Shown one piece after another: positions 6,891 through 28,729 of a stretch of DNA of 37,865 nt. Where the stretch lies: positions 1-37,865 of the IMG/VR virus record IMGVR_UViG_3300042261_002381. One strand, 5' to 3'. Origin of the DNA: a virus. Position 1 is the first letter of the stretch; each line of letters starts with the position of its first letter. Under the pieces are notes generated by a model, which made no database searches, was not told the origin of the DNA, and saw only the letters and a program-made list of their open reading frames with translations. The position numbers and the translations under genes are program-made.

Positions 6891-9168
6891 TTTCAACGAT
6901 ACCCCTGCTGAAGGGGCCCCCAACCCCGACGTGACACGCGAGTCGATCAGGACAGATCTCGTCGCACGACTGGAATCCATCCTGGCCACGCTGTTTCCAA
7001 CTGGTAAAAAACGCAAGGGCAAATTTCTCATCGGCGATGTGCTGGGCAGTCCCGGTGACAGCCTTGAGGTGGTACTTGACGGCGAGAAGACCGGTTTGTG
7101 GACCGATCGTGCCACCGGTGAAGGTGGTGACATCTTCGATCTGATCGCAGCCAACATTGGTGCCAATGCACACACAGACTTTCCACGCGTGATGCAACAC
7201 GCTGCAGATCTGCTGGGTCGCTCGCCTGTAACCCCGTCTCGCAAGGCCAAGAAGAAGGAAGTGCCAGTCGACGACCTGGGCCCGGCCACGGCCAAGTGGG
7301 ACTACCTGGATGCGGCAGGCAAGCTGATCGCGGTCGTCTACCGTTATGACCCGCCAGGTGGCAAGAAAGAGTTCCGTCCTTGGGATGCCAAACGCCGCAA
7401 GATGGCTCCACCGGACCCCAGGCCGCTGTACAACCAGCCGGGTTTGAATGACGCAGCCCAAGTCGTTCTCGTCGAGGGCGAGAAGTGCGCGCAGGCGCTG
7501 ATCCACGCTGGCATCACCGCCACCACGGCCATGCACGGTGCCAATGCCCCAGTGGACAAGACCGACTGGACACCCTTGGAAGGCAAGGCCGTATTGATCT
7601 GGCCCGACCGTGACAAGCCGGGCTGGGAGTATGCGGCGAGTGCTGCGCAGGCGGTATTGGACGCCGGCGCCAGGTCCTGCCACATTCTGTATCCGCCCCA
7701 GGAAGCGGCAGAAGGATGGGATGCAGCGGACGCCATTGCAGAAGGCTTTGATGTGGCGTCCTTCCTCGTGCATGGCCCACGCATGCAGATTCATGCCGTG
7801 GCCGAGGATGCCGAACCGGTGGTCAGCAGCGACGAGTCGGTGTGGGGCACAGAGGATGCGCTGGCGCTGGCCTTCACACGGCGCTACCACCGTGACTGGC
7901 GCTATGTGGCTGCATGGGGTCGGTGGCTGGTGTGGGACGGACAACGCTGGCGCAACGAGGACACGCTGGCCGCCACAGATCTGATCCGAAGTGTCTGCCG
8001 CCAGACAGCAGTGCGTGCCGAGGATCGCAAGGTTGCCGCCAAGTTGGCCAGCTCGGGCACCGTGGGTGGCGTTGAACGCCTGGCCCGTGCGGACCGCCGC
8101 CATGCTGCAACCACAGATGAGTGGGATTCCGACCCTTGGTTGCTCAACACTCCGGGTGGCGTCGTCGATCTCAAAACGGGTCGCATGCGCGCCAATGACC
8201 GAGCTGACCGAATGACCAAGATCACCACGGCCACGCCGCGCGGCGAGTGCCCCCAGTGGCGTTCGTTCCTGAGTGATGTCACTGGCGGCGACCAAAACCT
8301 GCAGGACTACCTGCAGCGAATGGTGGGTTATGCACTGACCGGCTCGACCCGCGAACACGCACTGTTCTTCCTCTACGGAACCGGTGCCAACGGTAAGTCG
8401 GTGTTCGTCAACACGCTGGCTGACATCCTGGGCGACTACGCGACCAATGCGCCCATGGACACATTCATGGAAACGCGCACGGACCGGCACCCGACCGATA
8501 TGGCAGGCCTGCGCGGTGCCCGCTTCGTGGCAGCCATCGAAACTGAACAAGGCAAACGTTGGGCCGAGTCCAAGCTCAAGAACCTGACCGGGGGCGACAA
8601 GATCGCAGCGCGTTTCATGCGTCAGGACTTCTTTGAGTTCTTCCCGCAGTTCAAGCTGTTCGTGGCAGGCAATCACAAGCCGGCGATTCGAAACATCGAC
8701 GAAGCCATGAAGCGGCGGCTGCACCTGATTCCATTCACGATCACCGTGCCCCCTGAGAAACGCGACAAGCACCTGCAGCAAAAGCTATTGGCTGAACGAG
8801 ATGGAATCCTGGCCTGGGCTCTGGAAGGCTGTCTCGCCTGGCAACGGCTGGGCCGGCTCGATCCGCCGCAATTGGTGCTGGACGCCACCGATGAGTACTT
8901 TGAAGCCGAGGACGCCCTGGGGCGCTGGATGGATGAGCGTTGCCTGCGGGTTGGGACAGCCAAGTCGCTGACCGCCGAACTGTTCACCGACTGGAAGCAG
9001 TGGGCAGAAGCGGCTGGGGAGTTTGTTGGTTCGCAAAAGCGCTTCGCCGATTTGCTGCTCACCCGCGGGCTTGAGAAATGGCGAAACGGAATGGGGCTGC
9101 GTGGCTTTCAGGGCATTGGACTGAAGGCCCCACCCACCCCTACCTACACCCCTTACACGGACAACTGA
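6883..9168 (+). CDS. Primase-helicase (TOPRIM plus SF3/D5-type helicase)
   Basis: This 761-aa replication protein should prime and unwind phage DNA at its origin. An N-terminal primase-like region includes a cysteine-free GLWTDRATGEGGDIFDLI segment (71-88). The TOPRIM motifs follow: VEGEK (197-201) and WPDRD (240-244). The C-terminal half is a D5_N/SF3 helicase with Walker A GTGANGKS at 499-506, Walker B-like FVAAIETE at 548-555 and the sensor KLFVAGNHKP at 591-600. The start at 6883 lies inside the preceding HTH gene. A long inverted-repeat element follows directly after the stop and is a candidate origin. Confidence 0.9.
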   Translation: MLDFNDTPAEGAPNPDVTRESIRTDLVARLESILATLFPTGKKRKGKFLIGDVLGSPGDSLEVVLDGEKTGLWTDRATGEGGDIFDLIAANIGANAHTDFPRVMQHAADLLGRSPVTPSRKAKKKEVPVDDLGPATAKWDYLDAAGKLIAVVYRYDPPGGKKEFRPWDAKRRKMAPPDPRPLYNQPGLNDAAQVVLVEGEKCAQALIHAGITATTAMHGANAPVDKTDWTPLEGKAVLIWPDRDKPGWEYAASAAQAVLDAGARSCHILYPPQEAAEGWDAADAIAEGFDVASFLVHGPRMQIHAVAEDAEPVVSSDESVWGTEDALALAFTRRYHRDWRYVAAWGRWLVWDGQRWRNEDTLAATDLIRSVCRQTAVRAEDRKVAAKLASSGTVGGVERLARADRRHAATTDEWDSDPWLLNTPGGVVDLKTGRMRANDRADRMTKITTATPRGECPQWRSFLSDVTGGDQNLQDYLQRMVGYALTGSTREHALFFLYGTGANGKSVFVNTLADILGDYATNAPMDTFMETRTDRHPTDMAGLRGARFVAAIETEQGKRWAESKLKNLTGGDKIAARFMRQDFFEFFPQFKLFVAGNHKPAIRNIDEAMKRRLHLIPFTITVPPEKRDKHLQQKLLAERDGILAWALEGCLAWQRLGRLDPPQLVLDATDEYFEAEDALGRWMDERCLRVGTAKSLTAELFTDWKQWAEAAGEFVGSQKRFADLLLTRGLEKWRNGMGLRGFQGIGLKAPPTPTYTPYTDN

Positions 9169-11385: not shown

Positions 11386-12792
11386 ATGACGCCAAACCTG
11401 CAGATCGAATACCGCCCGATCGATGCGCTGCTGCCTTATGCGCGTAACCCGCGCACGCATTCGCCGGCGCAGATTGCCAAGATCGCGGCCAGCATCGTGG
11501 AGTTTGGCTGGACACAGCCCATCTTGGTCGATGGCGACAATGGAATCATCGCTGGCCATGGACGCCTAGCTGCGGCACGCAAGCTGGAACTGGCTGAAGT
11601 CCCGGTCATTGAACTGGGGCACCTCACCCCGGCGCAGAAACGCGCCTACGTGATCGCCGATAACCGCCTGGCCCTGGACGCTGGCTGGGACGATGAACTG
11701 CTGGCACTGGAATTGGCGGAGTTGTCCGAAGCAGGCTACGACCTGGTGCTAACCGGTTTCGAGGATGACGAGCTGGCCAAGATGCTGGCCGACCTCGGTG
11801 ATGATGATGGTGCAGCGCCGGAGCAGGATTCGGATCCCGAAGCAGACGATGAGGTCCCAGAGCCACCGAAGCAACCAATCTCCCGTACAGGTGATGTCTG
11901 GCAACTGGGTCCGCACCGCCTGATCTGCGGTGACGCGTCGGACCCTGTCGCTATCGCCACCCTGATGCAGGGCGAGCAGGCAAGCCTGTGCTTTACCTCG
12001 CCACCCTACGGCAATCAGCGGGACTACACCTCCGGTGGCATCGCCGACTGGGATGGCCTGATGCGCGGCGTGTTCGCCCAGGTGCCCATGGCGGCCGATG
12101 GCCAGATGCTGGTCAACCTCGGATTGATCCACCGCGACAACGAGTTCATCCCGTATTGGGACCAGTGGCTTGCCTGGATGCGAACCCAAGGTTGGCGGCG
12201 CTTTGCCTGGTACGTCTGGGACCAAGGGCCGGGAATGCCGGGGGACTGGCAAGGTCGCCTGGCCCCCAGTTTTGAATTCATCTTCCACTTCAACCGCCAG
12301 ACGCGAAAGCCCAACAAAACGGTTCCTTGCAAGTTCGCCGGCCAGGAAACCCACCTGCGCGCCGACGGATCGTCCACCGCCATGCGAGGCAAGGATGGCC
12401 AGGTCAACGGTTGGACCGCTGCCGGTCAGCCAACGCAGGACCACCGCATCCCGGACTCGGTGATACGGGTTATGCGCCACAAGGGGAAGATTGGCCAGGA
12501 CATCGACCATCCGGCAGTCTTCCCAGTGACGCTGCCGGTGGAGGTGATCGAAGCCTACACGCAGGAAGGCGAGATCGTCTTCGAGCCCTTTGGCGGCAGC
12601 GGCACCACGCTGATGGCTGCCCAGCGCACCGGTCGCATCGGCCGGGCTGTCGAAATTGCGCCTGAGTACGTCGATGTGGCGTTGATCCGTTTCCAACAAA
12701 ACTTCCCTGGTGTGCCAGTCACCCTGGCCACCACAGGCGAGACCTTTGAGGACATCGCCCAACAGCGACAAAGCGAATCCACCGATGTCTGA
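11386..12792 (+). CDS. ParB-domain DNA methyltransferase fusion, SPPY type
   Basis: This 468-aa protein has an N-terminal ParB/Srx-like domain (RPIDALLPYARNPRTHS, then IIAGHGRLAAARKL at 54-67) and a C-terminal beta-class N6/N4 DNA methyltransferase. The catalytic motif is TSPPY at 204-208, and the AdoMet-binding motif FEPFGGSGT lies near 399-407. The order is catalytic before AdoMet site. SPPY is common in N4-cytosine enzymes, although adenine specificity is possible. The gene lacks a clear Shine-Dalgarno sequence and starts 8 bases after a terminator. It overlaps the second fusion by 8 bases. Likely roles are protection from host restriction or epigenetic control; the target site is unknown. 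Confidence 0.85.
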   Translation: MTPNLQIEYRPIDALLPYARNPRTHSPAQIAKIAASIVEFGWTQPILVDGDNGIIAGHGRLAAARKLELAEVPVIELGHLTPAQKRAYVIADNRLALDAGWDDELLALELAELSEAGYDLVLTGFEDDELAKMLADLGDDDGAAPEQDSDPEADDEVPEPPKQPISRTGDVWQLGPHRLICGDASDPVAIATLMQGEQASLCFTSPPYGNQRDYTSGGIADWDGLMRGVFAQVPMAADGQMLVNLGLIHRDNEFIPYWDQWLAWMRTQGWRRFAWYVWDQGPGMPGDWQGRLAPSFEFIFHFNRQTRKPNKTVPCKFAGQETHLRADGSSTAMRGKDGQVNGWTAAGQPTQDHRIPDSVIRVMRHKGKIGQDIDHPAVFPVTLPVEVIEAYTQEGEIVFEPFGGSGTTLMAAQRTGRIGRAVEIAPEYVDVALIRFQQNFPGVPVTLATTGETFEDIAQQRQSESTDV

Positions 12793-14077
12793 ACCTTGGC
12801 TCTCCACTCATATCGAACGCTGGCCAACAGCCAAGCTCGTCCCGTACGTCCGCAATGCCCGCACCCACTCCGAGGAGCAGGTGTCGCAGATCGCGGCCTC
12901 CATCGTTGAGTTCGGTTTCACCAACCCAATCCTGGCTGGATCTGACGGCGTGATAGTCGCAGGGCACGGCCGCCTGGCTGCCGCCCAGAAGCTGGGCCTG
13001 GACACGGTCCCGGTGGTCGTCCTCGATCACCTGACCCCGACTCAGCGTCGCGCGCTGATCATTGCGGACAACCGCATTGCTGAGAACGCCGGCTGGGACG
13101 ATGCCATGCTGCGCATCGAGTTGCAGTCGCTGCAAGAAGATGGCTACAACCTGGACATCACCGGCTTCGATGCCGATGCACTGGCGGAGATCATGGCGGG
13201 CGAAGAGACCACGGTCGATGGCCAGACGGATGACGATGAGGTGCCCGAAGTGTCGGCCACCCCCATCTCCCGCCCGGGTGATGTTTGGGAACTGGGAAAC
13301 CACCGGCTGGTGTGTGGCGACGCCACCGACCCGGCGAGCTACGAGGCGCTGATGGTCGATGGCCAGGCTGATATGGTGTTCACCGATCCGCCGTACAACG
13401 TGGACTACGCCAACAGTGCCAAGGACAAGATGCGTGGCAAGGACCGCCCCATCCTGAACGACAACCTGGGCGATGGCTTCTACGACTTCCTGCTGGCAGC
13501 GCTGACCCCAATGCTGGCGCGATGCGCCGGTGCCACCTACATCGCCATGTCGTCCAGCGAGCTGGACACGCTGCAGCAAGCCTTCCGGGCAGCGGGCGGC
13601 AAGTGGTCGACCTTCATCATCTGGGCCAAGAACACGTTCACCTTGGGTCGCGCCGACTACCAGCGGCAGTACGAACCCATCCTCTACGGCTGGCCCGAGG
13701 GGCAGAACCGCCACTGGTGTGGTGACCGCGATCAAGGCGATGTATGGAACATCAAAAAGCCGCAGAAGAACGATCTGCACCCGACCATGAAACCGGTGGA
13801 ACTGGTCGAGCGGGCCATCCGCAACTCCAGTCGACCAGGTGACATCGTGCTGGATCCCTTCGGGGGCTCCGGCACCACCCTCATCGCCGCAGAAAAGTCC
13901 GGCCGCATCGGCTGGCTGATCGAACTCGATCCCAAGTACGTGGACGTGATCGTGCGCCGATGGCAAGACTGGACTGGTCAGGAGGCCTACCGAGAAGCCG
14001 ATGCGGTCAAGTTCAATGACCTCGCGGCACTGGCAGGCATGTCAAGCGCAGCAGATTCAGCAGAGGCCGACGCATGA
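12785..14077 (+). CDS. ParB-domain DNA methyltransferase fusion, DPPY type
   Basis: This 430-aa protein is a paralogue of the preceding gene. Its ParB-like domain is colinear with the first one (PYVRNARTHS, VIVAGHGRLAAAQKL at 57-71, LIIADNRIAENAGWDD). The methyltransferase half differs: DPPYNVDY at 201-208 and LDPFGGSGT at 356-364, a pattern typical of N6-adenine enzymes such as the CcrM/HinfI group. The start is the ATG at 12785, inside the end of the first fusion; longer extensions have no homologous content. Two different catalytic motifs on a duplicated ParB module suggest two modification specificities. The role of the ParB part is unknown. Confidence 0.87.
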   Translation: MSEPWLSTHIERWPTAKLVPYVRNARTHSEEQVSQIAASIVEFGFTNPILAGSDGVIVAGHGRLAAAQKLGLDTVPVVVLDHLTPTQRRALIIADNRIAENAGWDDAMLRIELQSLQEDGYNLDITGFDADALAEIMAGEETTVDGQTDDDEVPEVSATPISRPGDVWELGNHRLVCGDATDPASYEALMVDGQADMVFTDPPYNVDYANSAKDKMRGKDRPILNDNLGDGFYDFLLAALTPMLARCAGATYIAMSSSELDTLQQAFRAAGGKWSTFIIWAKNTFTLGRADYQRQYEPILYGWPEGQNRHWCGDRDQGDVWNIKKPQKNDLHPTMKPVELVERAIRNSSRPGDIVLDPFGGSGTTLIAAEKSGRIGWLIELDPKYVDVIVRRWQDWTGQEAYREADAVKFNDLAALAGMSSAADSAEADA

Positions 14078-24455: not shown

Positions 24456-25394
24456 ATGGCCCGTGCCTACGGCGCGAACGCCAGCCTCTTGGCCGCGTTC
24501 GAAACCACCTATGGCAGCAACCCGGTGGGCGACTACTGGAAGCTGCCCTTTGTTTCCACCACCCTCGGCTCCGAGCAGGGGTTGATTGCGAACGACCTGA
24601 TTGGCCTGGGTCGTGAGCCCAATGCGCCGATTCGAGATGTGATCAAGGTCGAAGGCGACATGGTCGTGCCCGTGGACGTGCGCAACATCGGCATGTGGCT
24701 CAAAGCCCTGCTGGGCAGCGCCACCACCACGGGCACCGGCACGCTCACCCACACCTTCATCTCTGGCAAGTCCAGTTTGCCAAGCCTCAGTCTTGAGACG
24801 GGTCTTCCCGATATCCCGGCCTGGTTTGTGGCGTCTGGCGTCATGGTCAACAGCCTGCAGGTGGGGTTTGCCCGTTCGGGTGCGGCCAATGCCACGGTCG
24901 GCCTGATCGCGCAGGGTGAGGTCAAGCAGGCCGCCACCATCGATGCCTCCCCGACGACGCGCGACATCCTGCGGTTCAACCAGTTTCAGGGATCCATCAA
25001 GAAGGGGGGCACTGCGCTGGGTAACGTGGTCTCGGCGCAACTCACGTATTCCAACAACCTCGAGCGCATCGAGACCATCCGCTCCGACGGAAAGATCGAC
25101 GGCGCTGACCCCACGGTGGCCAGCCTGACTGGCAATTTGGAGGTCCGCTTTGCCGATACCCAGCTCATCGATGCGGCCACCAACAACACGCCACTGGAGT
25201 TGACGTTCGCCTACACGATCGACGCCACCAAGCGCCTAACCTTCATCGCACATGAGGTCTACCTGCCCAAGCCCAAAGTTTCCATCACTGGGCCAGGTGG
25301 CATTCAAGCCACTTTCGAGTGGCAAGCCGCCAAGAACGTGGCGGCCAACAAGATGCTCACCGTCGAACTGCTCAACGACGTGACCACGTATTGA
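24456..25394 (+). CDS. Major tail tube protein (gpV-like)
   Basis: The product is 312 aa with CAAGGAGA before the ATG. The sequence is almost all beta, with many Thr, Gly and Asn residues. Recurrent features are EGDMVVPVDVRNIGMWLKAL, THTFISGKSSLPSLSLETG and a C-terminal VSITGPGGIQATFEWQAA, typical of siphophage tail tube proteins. Hexamers would stack on the tape measure. It is directly followed by the chaperone genes, as in lambda. Confidence 0.88.
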   Translation: MARAYGANASLLAAFETTYGSNPVGDYWKLPFVSTTLGSEQGLIANDLIGLGREPNAPIRDVIKVEGDMVVPVDVRNIGMWLKALLGSATTTGTGTLTHTFISGKSSLPSLSLETGLPDIPAWFVASGVMVNSLQVGFARSGAANATVGLIAQGEVKQAATIDASPTTRDILRFNQFQGSIKKGGTALGNVVSAQLTYSNNLERIETIRSDGKIDGADPTVASLTGNLEVRFADTQLIDAATNNTPLELTFAYTIDATKRLTFIAHEVYLPKPKVSITGPGGIQATFEWQAAKNVAANKMLTVELLNDVTTY

Positions 25395-25410: not shown

Positions 25411-25761
25411 ATGATCAAACTCAACATTCCACGTGAACCGCACTGGATCGCACTGGCCGCTGGCGTGCGCCTGCAGGTCAGGCCCGCCACCACTGCCTTG
25501 GTGATGGCTGCGCGCCATGCCGCCGCCAAAGTGGCCGGCACTGACATCGCCGCTGCTGGCGAGCGGACCGCCACCCTCATCACCGAACTGGCCAAGCTGG
25601 CCGTCATCGCCTGGGAAGGCGTGGCCGACGACAAAGGTCAACCAGCATCCGTCACACCAGAAGGCGTGGCCGCTTTGATGGAGCACTGGCTGTTGGCCGA
25701 GGCCTTCGAGCGCGAATACCTCGCTGGCCTCTACGCACTGGAATCGGAAAAAAACGCCTGA
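25411..25761 (+). CDS. Tail assembly chaperone (gpG-like, zero-frame product)
   Basis: This 116-aa protein is the normal termination product of the G/GT pair. The sequence is helical (TALVMAARHAAAKVAGTDIA, TATLITELAKLAVIAWEGVA, then GVAALMEHWLLAEAFEREYL). It binds and shields the tape measure protein during tail assembly. The last codons, GAA AAA AAC GCC TGA, carry the slippery heptamer, so a fraction of ribosomes would continue in the -1 frame. Confidence 0.88.
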   Translation: MIKLNIPREPHWIALAAGVRLQVRPATTALVMAARHAAAKVAGTDIAAAGERTATLITELAKLAVIAWEGVADDKGQPASVTPEGVAALMEHWLLAEAFEREYLAGLYALESEKNA

Positions 25762-26072
25762 AGGCCCGCACCGCATGGCACTTTGGTGGCGGGCCGAACT
25801 ACTGCAGTGCCTGCCTTCAAAGCTGTGCTGAGCCATGTCCCGAGTGCCCGTACACCATGAATGCACCCCTGAGCCTGGAAGGCTGGCAAGCGGCCAGTGC
25901 CATGGAAGTTTGTGCCAGTCAGTTGCGCATGACCCAGGGTCGTGTCGTGGGTCTGGATCTGAACGCATGGATGCTGACCTGCGAGTGCGCTGGGTTGGAC
26001 AAAGCCACTGCGATCGATCTGTTTCCGGCAGCAGAGGCGGGCCTGATGAGCACCTTTGAACAAAACGAATAA
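25411..26072 (+). CDS. Tail assembly chaperone fusion (gpGT-like, by -1 frameshift)
   Basis: A slip on A AAA AAC (25749-25755) moves ribosomes to the frame that stays open to the stop at 26070-26072. This gives about 220 aa: 115 from the zero frame and 105 from the -1 frame. The added part begins RLKARTAWHFGGGPNY, contains the motif CSACLQSCAEPCPEC (Cys codons at 25803, 25812, 25824, 25836 and 25845), then runs into the segment starting MNAPLSLEGW at 25857. That segment could also be read as a 71-aa gene but has no good ribosome-binding site. In lambda the T domain recruits tail tube subunits. Confidence 0.85.
25749..25795 (+). promoter_or_regulatory. Programmed -1 frameshift signal
   Basis: The slippery heptamer A AAA AAC is in the correct phase (25749-25755). 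It is followed after 7 bases by a stem: GGCCCGC (25763-25769) pairs with GCGGGCC (25789-25795), and ACC/GGT can extend it across one bulged base. Spacing and stem are as expected for a stimulatory hairpin. The zero-frame stop lies between the two elements. Confidence 0.85.
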
Positions 26073-26113: not shown

Positions 26114-28729
26114 ATGGCTGAACGCAATCTCTCCATTCGCCTGTCCGTGATCGACGGTGGCAAGGTCAAAGCCGAGCTGTCCGAGATCGGCGAGAAGGGG
26201 GAGCGCTCGCTCAAGAAAATAGAAGCGGCTGCCACCCCAGCCTCCGGTGGCCTCAAGCTCCTGTCCAGCGCAGCCAACGATGCCAAGTTCCAACTGCAGG
26301 CCGCGACAGACCGACTTGGCATGCTGGGCTCGGTGCTGGGCAAGCTCGGTCCTGCCGGTCTGATCGCCGGTGCCAGCATCGCAGCACTCGGTGTGGGCAT
26401 CACGGCGCTCGTCATGCCGGTGGCCCGGGTGGGCGATGAGTTCTTCAAGCTCTCGCAAAAGACTGGGGTATCGGTCGAGGCGCTGACCGCGCTGGACTAT
26501 GCGGCCAAGCTGTCGGATGTCAGCACCGAAGGCTTGACCAAGGCACTGCAAAAACTGTCGGTTGCCATGTTCGACTCCCAGGTCAATGGCGAAGAGGGCA
26601 GCGCAGCGTTGAAGGCGCTGGGTGTGTCGGCCACCGATGTGCACGGACAGATCCGTCCGACCGAGCAGGTCTTGCTGGATCTGGCGGACAAGTTTTCTGT
26701 CATGCCTGATGGAGCCGATAAGGCTGCTTTGGCGGTCAAGCTCTTCGGCAAAGAAGGCCTGGCCATCGTCCCGTTCCTGAATCAGGGGCGTGAGGGCATT
26801 ACAGCGCTGATGGAAGAAGCGCAGCGCCTGGGCCTGGTCATGTCGGAAGACGTGGCGCGTGCATCCGAGGTCTTCAACGACAACCTGACGCGCCTGTCTG
26901 CCATCTTCGAGGGCGTGCAGCGCCAGATCGGCGCAGCCGTCATCCCGATCCTGGCTGACTTCACCGAGCAGGTGATCTTGGCGCAGGGTGAAACCGGCAG
27001 TTTCAGCAATGAACTGCAGCGCATCACGTCTAACCGGGATGCCACGCTCGCGTTTCTGGAGTCGGTGGCCTCGGGTCTGGCCTTCATTGCCGAGTCGGCG
27101 GTGCTGGCCAAGCGTGTGATTGCCCAGCCCTTTGACAGTCTGTCGGTGGTGGGCAAGGACATCGAGACCTGGTTCAAGACCGATTTGCTGCGCACGCTGA
27201 AGTCCATGGGTTACGACCCCAAGGTCATTGATGCGGAAATCGCCAAGCTGCAAGGGGCGCGTGACGACTACGTGCACGCCGCCAACGACCGGCTCTTCAA
27301 CATCAACCAGAACCCGGGCTACGCGGACCGGGTGGCGAAGTTTTTCGATGAGCAGCGCCGCACCGTGCGTGTGATGGGCCAAAAGTTCGTGCTCGACACC
27401 GAGGCTCAGGCCAAGGAAGTGCAGGCCATTTACGATAAGTTCTTGCCGACGCTGCCGCGCAAGCCCCGGATGGAGTTGGACCTGTCCGGCTTTCAAAAGC
27501 CCAAGCCCGCTGAAAAACTCAACGAAGGCGAAGCCTTCCTCAATCAGCTGCGCTCGCGCCTGACCCGCACGCAAGAGGGTGAAGCTGCCGAACTGCGCGC
27601 CCGGGCCCTGCAGATCGAAGCCAAGGGCTACCAAGGGGTGGCGGCTGAGGCCCAGCAGTACATCCAGGTGCTCGAAGCCATCGAGCGCCAGAAGGAAGCT
27701 AATAAAACCTTCGACGCCTTTGAAAAAGAAGAAGCCGCCTCGCGCAAGATCACCGAAGGCTTGATTGGCGGCAACCGCCAGCGCATCGAAGCCCTGCAGT
27801 TGCAGCGCCAGATGCTGGACATGACCGATGCCGAAAAAGCCGCCCTGCAGGCCCGCTCTGATCTGGAAAAGGCTGCTGCCAATGCGCGCAAGGAAGCCAA
27901 CCAGATCGAAGATCCGGGCCTGCAGGCTCAGACCATTGAAGCCATCAACGATGCGTTGGCCAGGCAACTACCCATCGTTGAAGATCTGGTGCGGGCCAAC
28001 ACGGACTATCAGCGCAGTTTTGAGTACGGTGCCAAGTCGGCGCTCAGAACCTATATCGACGACGCGACCAACGCCGCCAAGCGTGCCCAGCAGGTCACGG
28101 CCAATGCGTTTCGAGGCATGGAGACGGCGCTCACCCAGTTCGTGATGACGGGCAAGCTGGACTTCAAAAGCTTGGCCGATTCCATCATCTCGGACCTCGT
28201 GCGCATCCAGATCCAGCGATCTATCACGCTGCCGCTGGCGAACGCGATGAATGGTGCCATGGCCGGGATGGACTTGGGATCAATGTGGGCCAGCCTGTTC
28301 CCTTCGGCCCAAGGCAATGTGTTTGAAGGCCCAGCCCTATCGGCCTACCGCAACACGGTGGTCGACCGTCCGACGGTGTTCCCGTTTGCCCAGGGCGCTG
28401 GCTTTGCCAGCGTGCCACGTATCGGTCTCATGGGCGAAAAACCTGGCAGCCCGGGCGAAGCCATCATGCCGCTCACGCGCATGCGCGATGGCGATCTGGG
28501 CGTCAAGGTCAACGGCGGAGGCAGCACCGTCATCGTCAATGTTATCGAGGCCGCCGGCAAAGGTGGCCAGCAACAGCAGCGCACTGACAGCAACGGCAAC
28601 CAAGTGATCGACGTCTGGGTAGAACAAATCACGGCCAAGGTCTGGGGCGATGTGGCGCGTGGTGCCGGTCCCGGCCCTGGCGTGCTGGCCAACACCTACG
28701 GCCTGAACCGCGTGGCAGGAGCCTATTGA
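26114..28729 (+). CDS. Tail tape measure protein (gpH-like)
   Basis: The product is 871 aa, the longest helical protein in the tail block; it sets tail length and is ejected with the DNA. A hydrophobic segment at about 78-102 (GPAGLIAGASIAALGVGITA) is typical. The first 70 residues and 440-640 are rich in Ala, Glu, Lys and Gln and would form coiled coils. The C-terminal region (about 640-760) holds the lambda-tail-like ALTQFVMTGKLDFKSLADSI. It follows the chaperone genes, which bind it. Confidence 0.93.
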   Translation: MAERNLSIRLSVIDGGKVKAELSEIGEKGERSLKKIEAAATPASGGLKLLSSAANDAKFQLQAATDRLGMLGSVLGKLGPAGLIAGASIAALGVGITALVMPVARVGDEFFKLSQKTGVSVEALTALDYAAKLSDVSTEGLTKALQKLSVAMFDSQVNGEEGSAALKALGVSATDVHGQIRPTEQVLLDLADKFSVMPDGADKAALAVKLFGKEGLAIVPFLNQGREGITALMEEAQRLGLVMSEDVARASEVFNDNLTRLSAIFEGVQRQIGAAVIPILADFTEQVILAQGETGSFSNELQRITSNRDATLAFLESVASGLAFIAESAVLAKRVIAQPFDSLSVVGKDIETWFKTDLLRTLKSMGYDPKVIDAEIAKLQGARDDYVHAANDRLFNINQNPGYADRVAKFFDEQRRTVRVMGQKFVLDTEAQAKEVQAIYDKFLPTLPRKPRMELDLSGFQKPKPAEKLNEGEAFLNQLRSRLTRTQEGEAAELRARALQIEAKGYQGVAAEAQQYIQVLEAIERQKEANKTFDAFEKEEAASRKITEGLIGGNRQRIEALQLQRQMLDMTDAEKAALQARSDLEKAAANARKEANQIEDPGLQAQTIEAINDALARQLPIVEDLVRANTDYQRSFEYGAKSALRTYIDDATNAAKRAQQVTANAFRGMETALTQFVMTGKLDFKSLADSIISDLVRIQIQRSITLPLANAMNGAMAGMDLGSMWASLFPSAQGNVFEGPALSAYRNTVVDRPTVFPFAQGAGFASVPRIGLMGEKPGSPGEAIMPLTRMRDGDLGVKVNGGGSTVIVNVIEAAGKGGQQQQRTDSNGNQVIDVWVEQITAKVWGDVARGAGPGPGVLANTYGLNRVAGAY

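Follow-up and report, generated by a model that had tools for sequence, protein, structure and literature searches.

A Predicted G/GT-Type Programmed −1 Frameshift at the Tail Chaperone Locus of a Lambda-like Temperate Phage

We propose that a pair of overlapping reading frames in an IMG/VR virus record constitutes a G/GT programmed −1 ribosomal frameshift locus of a lambda-like temperate phage, a reading to which we assign a probability of about 96%; the host probably belongs to the Betaproteobacteria. The window, by which we mean the whole stretch of DNA that was analyzed, is 37,865 bases long and carries a lambda-type structural module. The proposal is based on the signal and its phase, an open −1 frame, conservation among relatives, a downstream hairpin under selection, gene order, and the homology of both parts of the product. 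To a specialist the frameshift signal is ordinary and unsurprising, with comparative evidence that is unusually complete.

Results and Discussion

Organization of the Locus

The upstream part of the structural module comprises a GpA-type terminase, a lambda-family portal, an S49 protease, and capsid E, after which follow the tail tube, G, T, the tape measure, minor tail proteins, and a J-like tip protein. As would be expected of a G/GT pair, G and T are overlapping open reading frames (ORFs) lying between the tube and tape measure genes. The features of the locus, with the kind of evidence behind each, are as follows.

24456–25394, + strand: tail tube protein, upstream neighbor (PF18906, E 5e-56)
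25411–25761, + strand: G, predicted tail assembly chaperone, 116 aa (zero frame, translation)
25749–25755, + strand: slippery heptamer A_AAA_AAC in X_XXY_YYZ phase (read from the sequence)
25759–25761, + strand: zero-frame stop TGA, 3 nt past the heptamer
25755–26072, + strand: T, predicted −1 frame extension, 105 codons plus stop TAA at 26070–26072 (translation; homologues with an equal frame relation; DUF7697/DUF1799 similarity)
25763–25795, + strand: probable stimulatory hairpin, 11 pairs with one bulged G (fold, synonymous recoding, covariation)
25857–26072, + strand: 71-aa ORF that a gene caller may report (mechanical ORF)
26114–28729, + strand: tape measure protein, downstream neighbor (PHROG 1716, E 2e-63; PF09718, E 1e-26)

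The G protein ends with E113, K114, N115, and A116 before the stop, encoded by GAA AAA AAC GCC TGA, and the run of A that overlaps the heptamer comprises seven bases (25748–25754). The original prediction had read this end, with A AAA AAC in phase, and a −1 frame that stays open for 105 codons to a stop at 26072; the first reading is exact and our translation agrees with the second, the predicted GT fusion of 115 + 105 residues having the 220 aa that had been given for it. An in-phase A_AAA_AAC near the 3′ end of G, with T open in the −1 frame, is the arrangement that a G/GT frameshift would use. G matches PHROG 313, a tail assembly chaperone family (E 1.3e-7), and is 31–37% identical to chaperones of Rhodobacter and cyanobacterial phages; together with the location between tube and tape measure, this match upholds the identification of the locus as G/GT tail chaperones. 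G is without any match in Pfam or NCBIfam, T is without a match in NCBIfam, and a PDB sequence search with G as the query returned no match.

Elsewhere in the window, a large serine recombinase with resolvase and recombinase domains occupies positions 1–1416, where the record begins, as would fit a temperate phage or prophage. Two adjacent, overlapping ORFs (11386–12792 and 12710–14077) each combine a ParB-like N-terminal domain with an N6/N4 DNA methylase domain.

No Separate Start for T

The least improbable alternative treats T as a separate gene with its own start, such as the ATG at 25857 that opens the 71-aa ORF, translated by reinitiation after the G stop. That ORF exists, and a two-gene reading has precedent in database records: those of Sc-Yong805-1 and Nsp-JY21 each list two separate genes, the second truncated, and VarioGold has a separately annotated DUF1799 gene (PMC9658991). 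However, the first −1-frame start codon in the window (ATG, GTG, or TTG) is codon 35, at 25857, with no SD-like sequence before it, and only 7 of 155 distinct relatives have an SD-like sequence ahead of the point where the −1 frame first offers a start. T is conserved (WHFGGG...YC..C) from the heptamer onward, 34 codons ahead of any start codon, and a separate gene would leave the invariant heptamer and the hairpin unexplained. A downstream ORF without start signals of its own is what a G/GT locus would contain, and we regard a separate T gene as very improbable; the 71-aa ORF is most likely a fragment of T and not a gene.

The annotations of Sc-Yong805-1, Nsp-JY21, and VarioGold bear out, by analogy, the earlier warning that a gene caller may report a false 71-aa gene. 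A homologous joined product is already annotated in Rhodobacter phages: the chaperone CDS of RcKemmy and RcOceanus is joined from two pieces and measures 722 nt, or 3n − 1 bases, which is the length that a −1 join requires. The original prediction had named relatives in which the heptamer is lost and a good downstream start and ribosome-binding site are gained as the case that would speak against it. Among the retrieved relatives we found none of this kind, and the 7 of 155 sequences with an SD-like element accord with a downstream frame that lacks an early start.

Conservation of the Slippery Heptamer

AAAAAAC occurs three times on the two strands of the window against 1.7 occurrences expected by chance; of the other two copies, one belongs to the minus strand and one, at 7006, does not fit the reading phase of its gene. 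The occurrence of the heptamer alone is unremarkable, and it is the phase, place, and conservation that are remarkable. A scan of viral contigs that used only G as the query, and was thus not biased toward a frameshift, found 80 loci, and the heptamer is kept in every one. When the loci retrieved by T are added, along with the copy in the window itself, GAAAAAAACG and the zero-frame TGA stand at the same place in 92 of 92 viral loci examined (67 distinct sequences). The codons GAA, AAA, and AAC are invariant in 91 distinct close G genes, in which the minor codon makes up on average 16% of the uses at other conserved two-fold codons.

Bacterial genomes scanned with the T alignment as the query yielded 80 loci, mostly from Burkholderiales and Alphaproteobacteria, and the conserved WHFGGG of T lies exactly 27 nt from the start of an in-phase heptamer in all except two, L205 and L225. 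In both of these Defluviicoccus copies, the assembly has an N exactly within the A run of the heptamer. Another of the 80, L198 on an Azohydromonas MAG contig, has a zero-frame TAA directly before the heptamer where its relatives have GAA; this copy, which would represent a sequencing error or a decayed locus, would not yield G and GT in their usual form.

The same distance, from the heptamer to the TGG of WHFGGG, is found in 155 distinct relatives, a set that was built by requiring a heptamer at that place, so that the unselected counts are those of the 92 viral and 80 bacterial loci. Within this set the heptamer is AAAAAAC in 126 T sequences, GGGAAAC in 27, and AAAAAAA in 2 (34, 7, and 2, respectively, among 43 diverse representatives); GGGAAAC is the form in Rhodobacter phages and AAAAAAA that in cyanobacterial phages. 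The position of the zero-frame TGA is identical in betaproteobacterial relatives and further 3′ in many alphaproteobacterial relatives. The conservation of the heptamer that had been anticipated holds wherever the sequence is intact in the retrieved relatives, the only replacements being other slippery heptamers, GGGAAAC or AAAAAAA. Apart from the two loci with an N in the site, the slip site is conserved as a G/GT signal would be. Because GGGAAAC changes the G peptide (Lys to Gly) yet keeps the slip, it is the slip itself that is conserved.

The Downstream Hairpin

A spacer of 7 nt (25756–25762) separates the heptamer from the predicted stem. The seven-pair core, GGCCCGC (25763–25769) with GCGGGCC (25789–25795), is the stem of 7 pairs starting 7 bases past the heptamer that had been described from the sequence, and the minimum-energy fold lengthens it to 11 pairs with one bulged base, in which GGCCCGCACCG (25763–25773) pairs with UGGUgGCGGGCC (25784–25795). 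Compared with dinucleotide shuffles, the 60-nt fold downstream in the window is not unusual (z −0.01); since a dinucleotide shuffle of the window's hairpin alone is uninformative, we replaced it with synonymous recoding and internal controls. Because conserved residues of T are encoded across the hairpin, natural sequences were compared with synonymous recodings of the −1-frame peptide. By this measure the hairpin of the window has a z of −2.1 (p 0.03; −2.05 in an independent run), the natural hairpins of the 43 diverse representatives have a mean z of −2.75, and nine other segments of the same ORF, which serve as internal controls, range from −0.62 to +0.07. Some members have weak hairpins (z −0.36 in L093 and 0.03 in L182).

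The second Gly codon of WHFGGG is GGC or GGT opposite CGY and GGG opposite CTN or TTG, with counts of 17:1 against 3:19 in the 43 diverse representatives that come from related sequences and not from independent events. The Gly codon switch, which is silent in T, shifts the stem from a bulged register to an unbulged one or back. At one stem pair, A-U takes the place of G-C in 9 sequences. The hairpin is more stable than coding requires, which points to selection, and the expected conservation of the stem in relatives is seen in its retention beyond coding need and in compensating silent changes. A search of Rfam gave only a sub-threshold chance match.

These data also bear on transcriptional slippage, in which RNA polymerase would add an A in the A7 run and thereby generate the −1 product. 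A run of seven A is present, and such slippage is known to occur on runs of A (PMC5009743), but GGGAAAC stands at the same place instead of an A run in 27 of the 155 distinct sequences. Because GGGAAAC removes the homopolymer slip and keeps a ribosomal slip site, it argues against this mechanism, as does a selected hairpin at ribosomal spacing, and we consider transcriptional slippage even less probable than a separate T gene. The notion that the heptamer is a chance occurrence, with G ending at TGA and the −1 frame unused, would accommodate the 1.7 copies expected per window and a downstream fold that is ordinary against dinucleotide shuffles, but it is refuted by the comparative data, including the conservation of heptamer and hairpin and the presence of homologous T in the same relation in prophages of Alpha- and Betaproteobacteria and in cyanobacterial phages, and its probability is negligible. 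All three explanations were rejected on the evidence of conservation, SD-like sequences, and GGGAAAC.

Proposed Mechanism and Comparison with Known Systems

For the programmed ribosomal frameshift, we infer the slippage itself, its efficiency, and the roles of the proteins as follows. Most ribosomes would translate G and terminate at TGA 25759, and a minority, at the downstream hairpin, would slip one base back on A_AAA_AAC and continue in the −1 frame to yield GT of 220 aa. By analogy with lambda, many copies of G and few of GT would coat the tape measure protein through the G part, the T part would recruit tail tube subunits, and G and GT would then leave. In lambda, gpG outnumbers the rare gpGT by about 30:1; both attach to the tape measure by way of G, tube subunits are brought in by T, and the completed tail contains neither protein (PMC5009743). 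Because the gene order and the chaperone family are the same, a lambda-type role is the best explanation for the proteins of the window. We note that A_AAA_AAC is a less efficient slip site than A_AAA_AAG in E. coli (PMC5009743), which counts against our reading; yet only a low efficiency is needed.

The G/GT −1 frameshift of phage lambda and most long-tailed phages is reportedly the subject of Levin 1993 and of Xu, Hendrix, and Duda 2004. The window shares with lambda the order tube–G–T–tape measure, an in-phase heptamer near the end of G, a T in the −1 frame, and the combination of a short chaperone with a long fusion. It differs in its slip site, A_AAA_AAC instead of lambda's G_GGA_AAG, in its strong, selected hairpin, and in a T with a four-Cys motif; no clear sequence resemblance of the window's proteins to lambda G or T was demonstrated. 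G/GT frameshifting of lambda and most long-tailed phages has been reviewed (PMC5009743).

RcKemmy, RcOceanus, and their relatives (MW677517, MW677520) share a homologous G (35%) and T (31%), the same tail module, the 27-nt spacing from heptamer to TGG, and a chaperone annotated as a joined CDS. They differ from the window in the heptamer (GGGAAAC), in a zero frame that continues about 90 nt past it, and in the sequence of the hairpin. The locus and its relatives, which vary in heptamer (three forms), hairpin register (two), and stop position (several) around a constant 27-nt geometry, form a large natural series in which the evolution of a frameshift signal could be followed while the protein is fixed. 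Here and in many related prophages, the frameshift reading would also correct the annotation, in which a 220-aa assembly protein is otherwise missed and a false 71-aa gene reported.

The T Domain and Pfam Families of Unknown Function

Across the 43 diverse members, T contains a conserved Cys set, YC-x2-C...C-x2-CP, that looks like a metal site. DUF7697 (PF24752) matches 42 of the 43 T domains, with relatives reaching E 1.3e-24, and DUF1799 (PF08809) matches 12 of the 43 at E up to 0.01 (best 1e-6); the T of the window itself falls under both curated cutoffs, with 23.3 vs 27 bits for DUF7697 and 18.7 vs 26 bits for DUF1799. Both families are listed by Pfam as being of unknown function, and our literature search found no paper naming DUF7697 and only one naming DUF1799. 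In 5 of 5 DUF1799 loci examined in other genomes, an in-phase AAAAAAC or GGGAAAC lies close to where the frame, or the conserved part of it, begins. The DUF1799 locus L260 has C-x2-C...C-x2-C before its DUF1799 T domain together with an in-phase AAAAAAC, so that the Cys motif and DUF1799 are linked beyond the close family of the window as well.

The T domain was also modeled (pLDDT 83.8), and the best viral fold matches of the model include several predicted proteins of other phages that are named tape measure chaperones, with probabilities of 0.90–1.00 and weak E values of 0.09–0.25; a PDB fold search with the model returned nothing. DUF7697 and DUF1799 each appear to cover a piece of the T domain. 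We lean toward the view that the T of a large group of proteobacterial phages is a conserved, possibly zinc-binding four-Cys domain, and that DUF7697 and DUF1799 are partial annotations of a T made only by frameshifting. If so, a function is suggested for two Pfam families, and many of their database entries would be truncated pieces of GT fusions.

In L195 (Tepidicella baoligensis) and L079, T has 142 codons in place of about 101. The extra length in both comes from a 41-codon stretch (TMNAPESLEGWQ...NAWML) that is duplicated in tandem and in frame.
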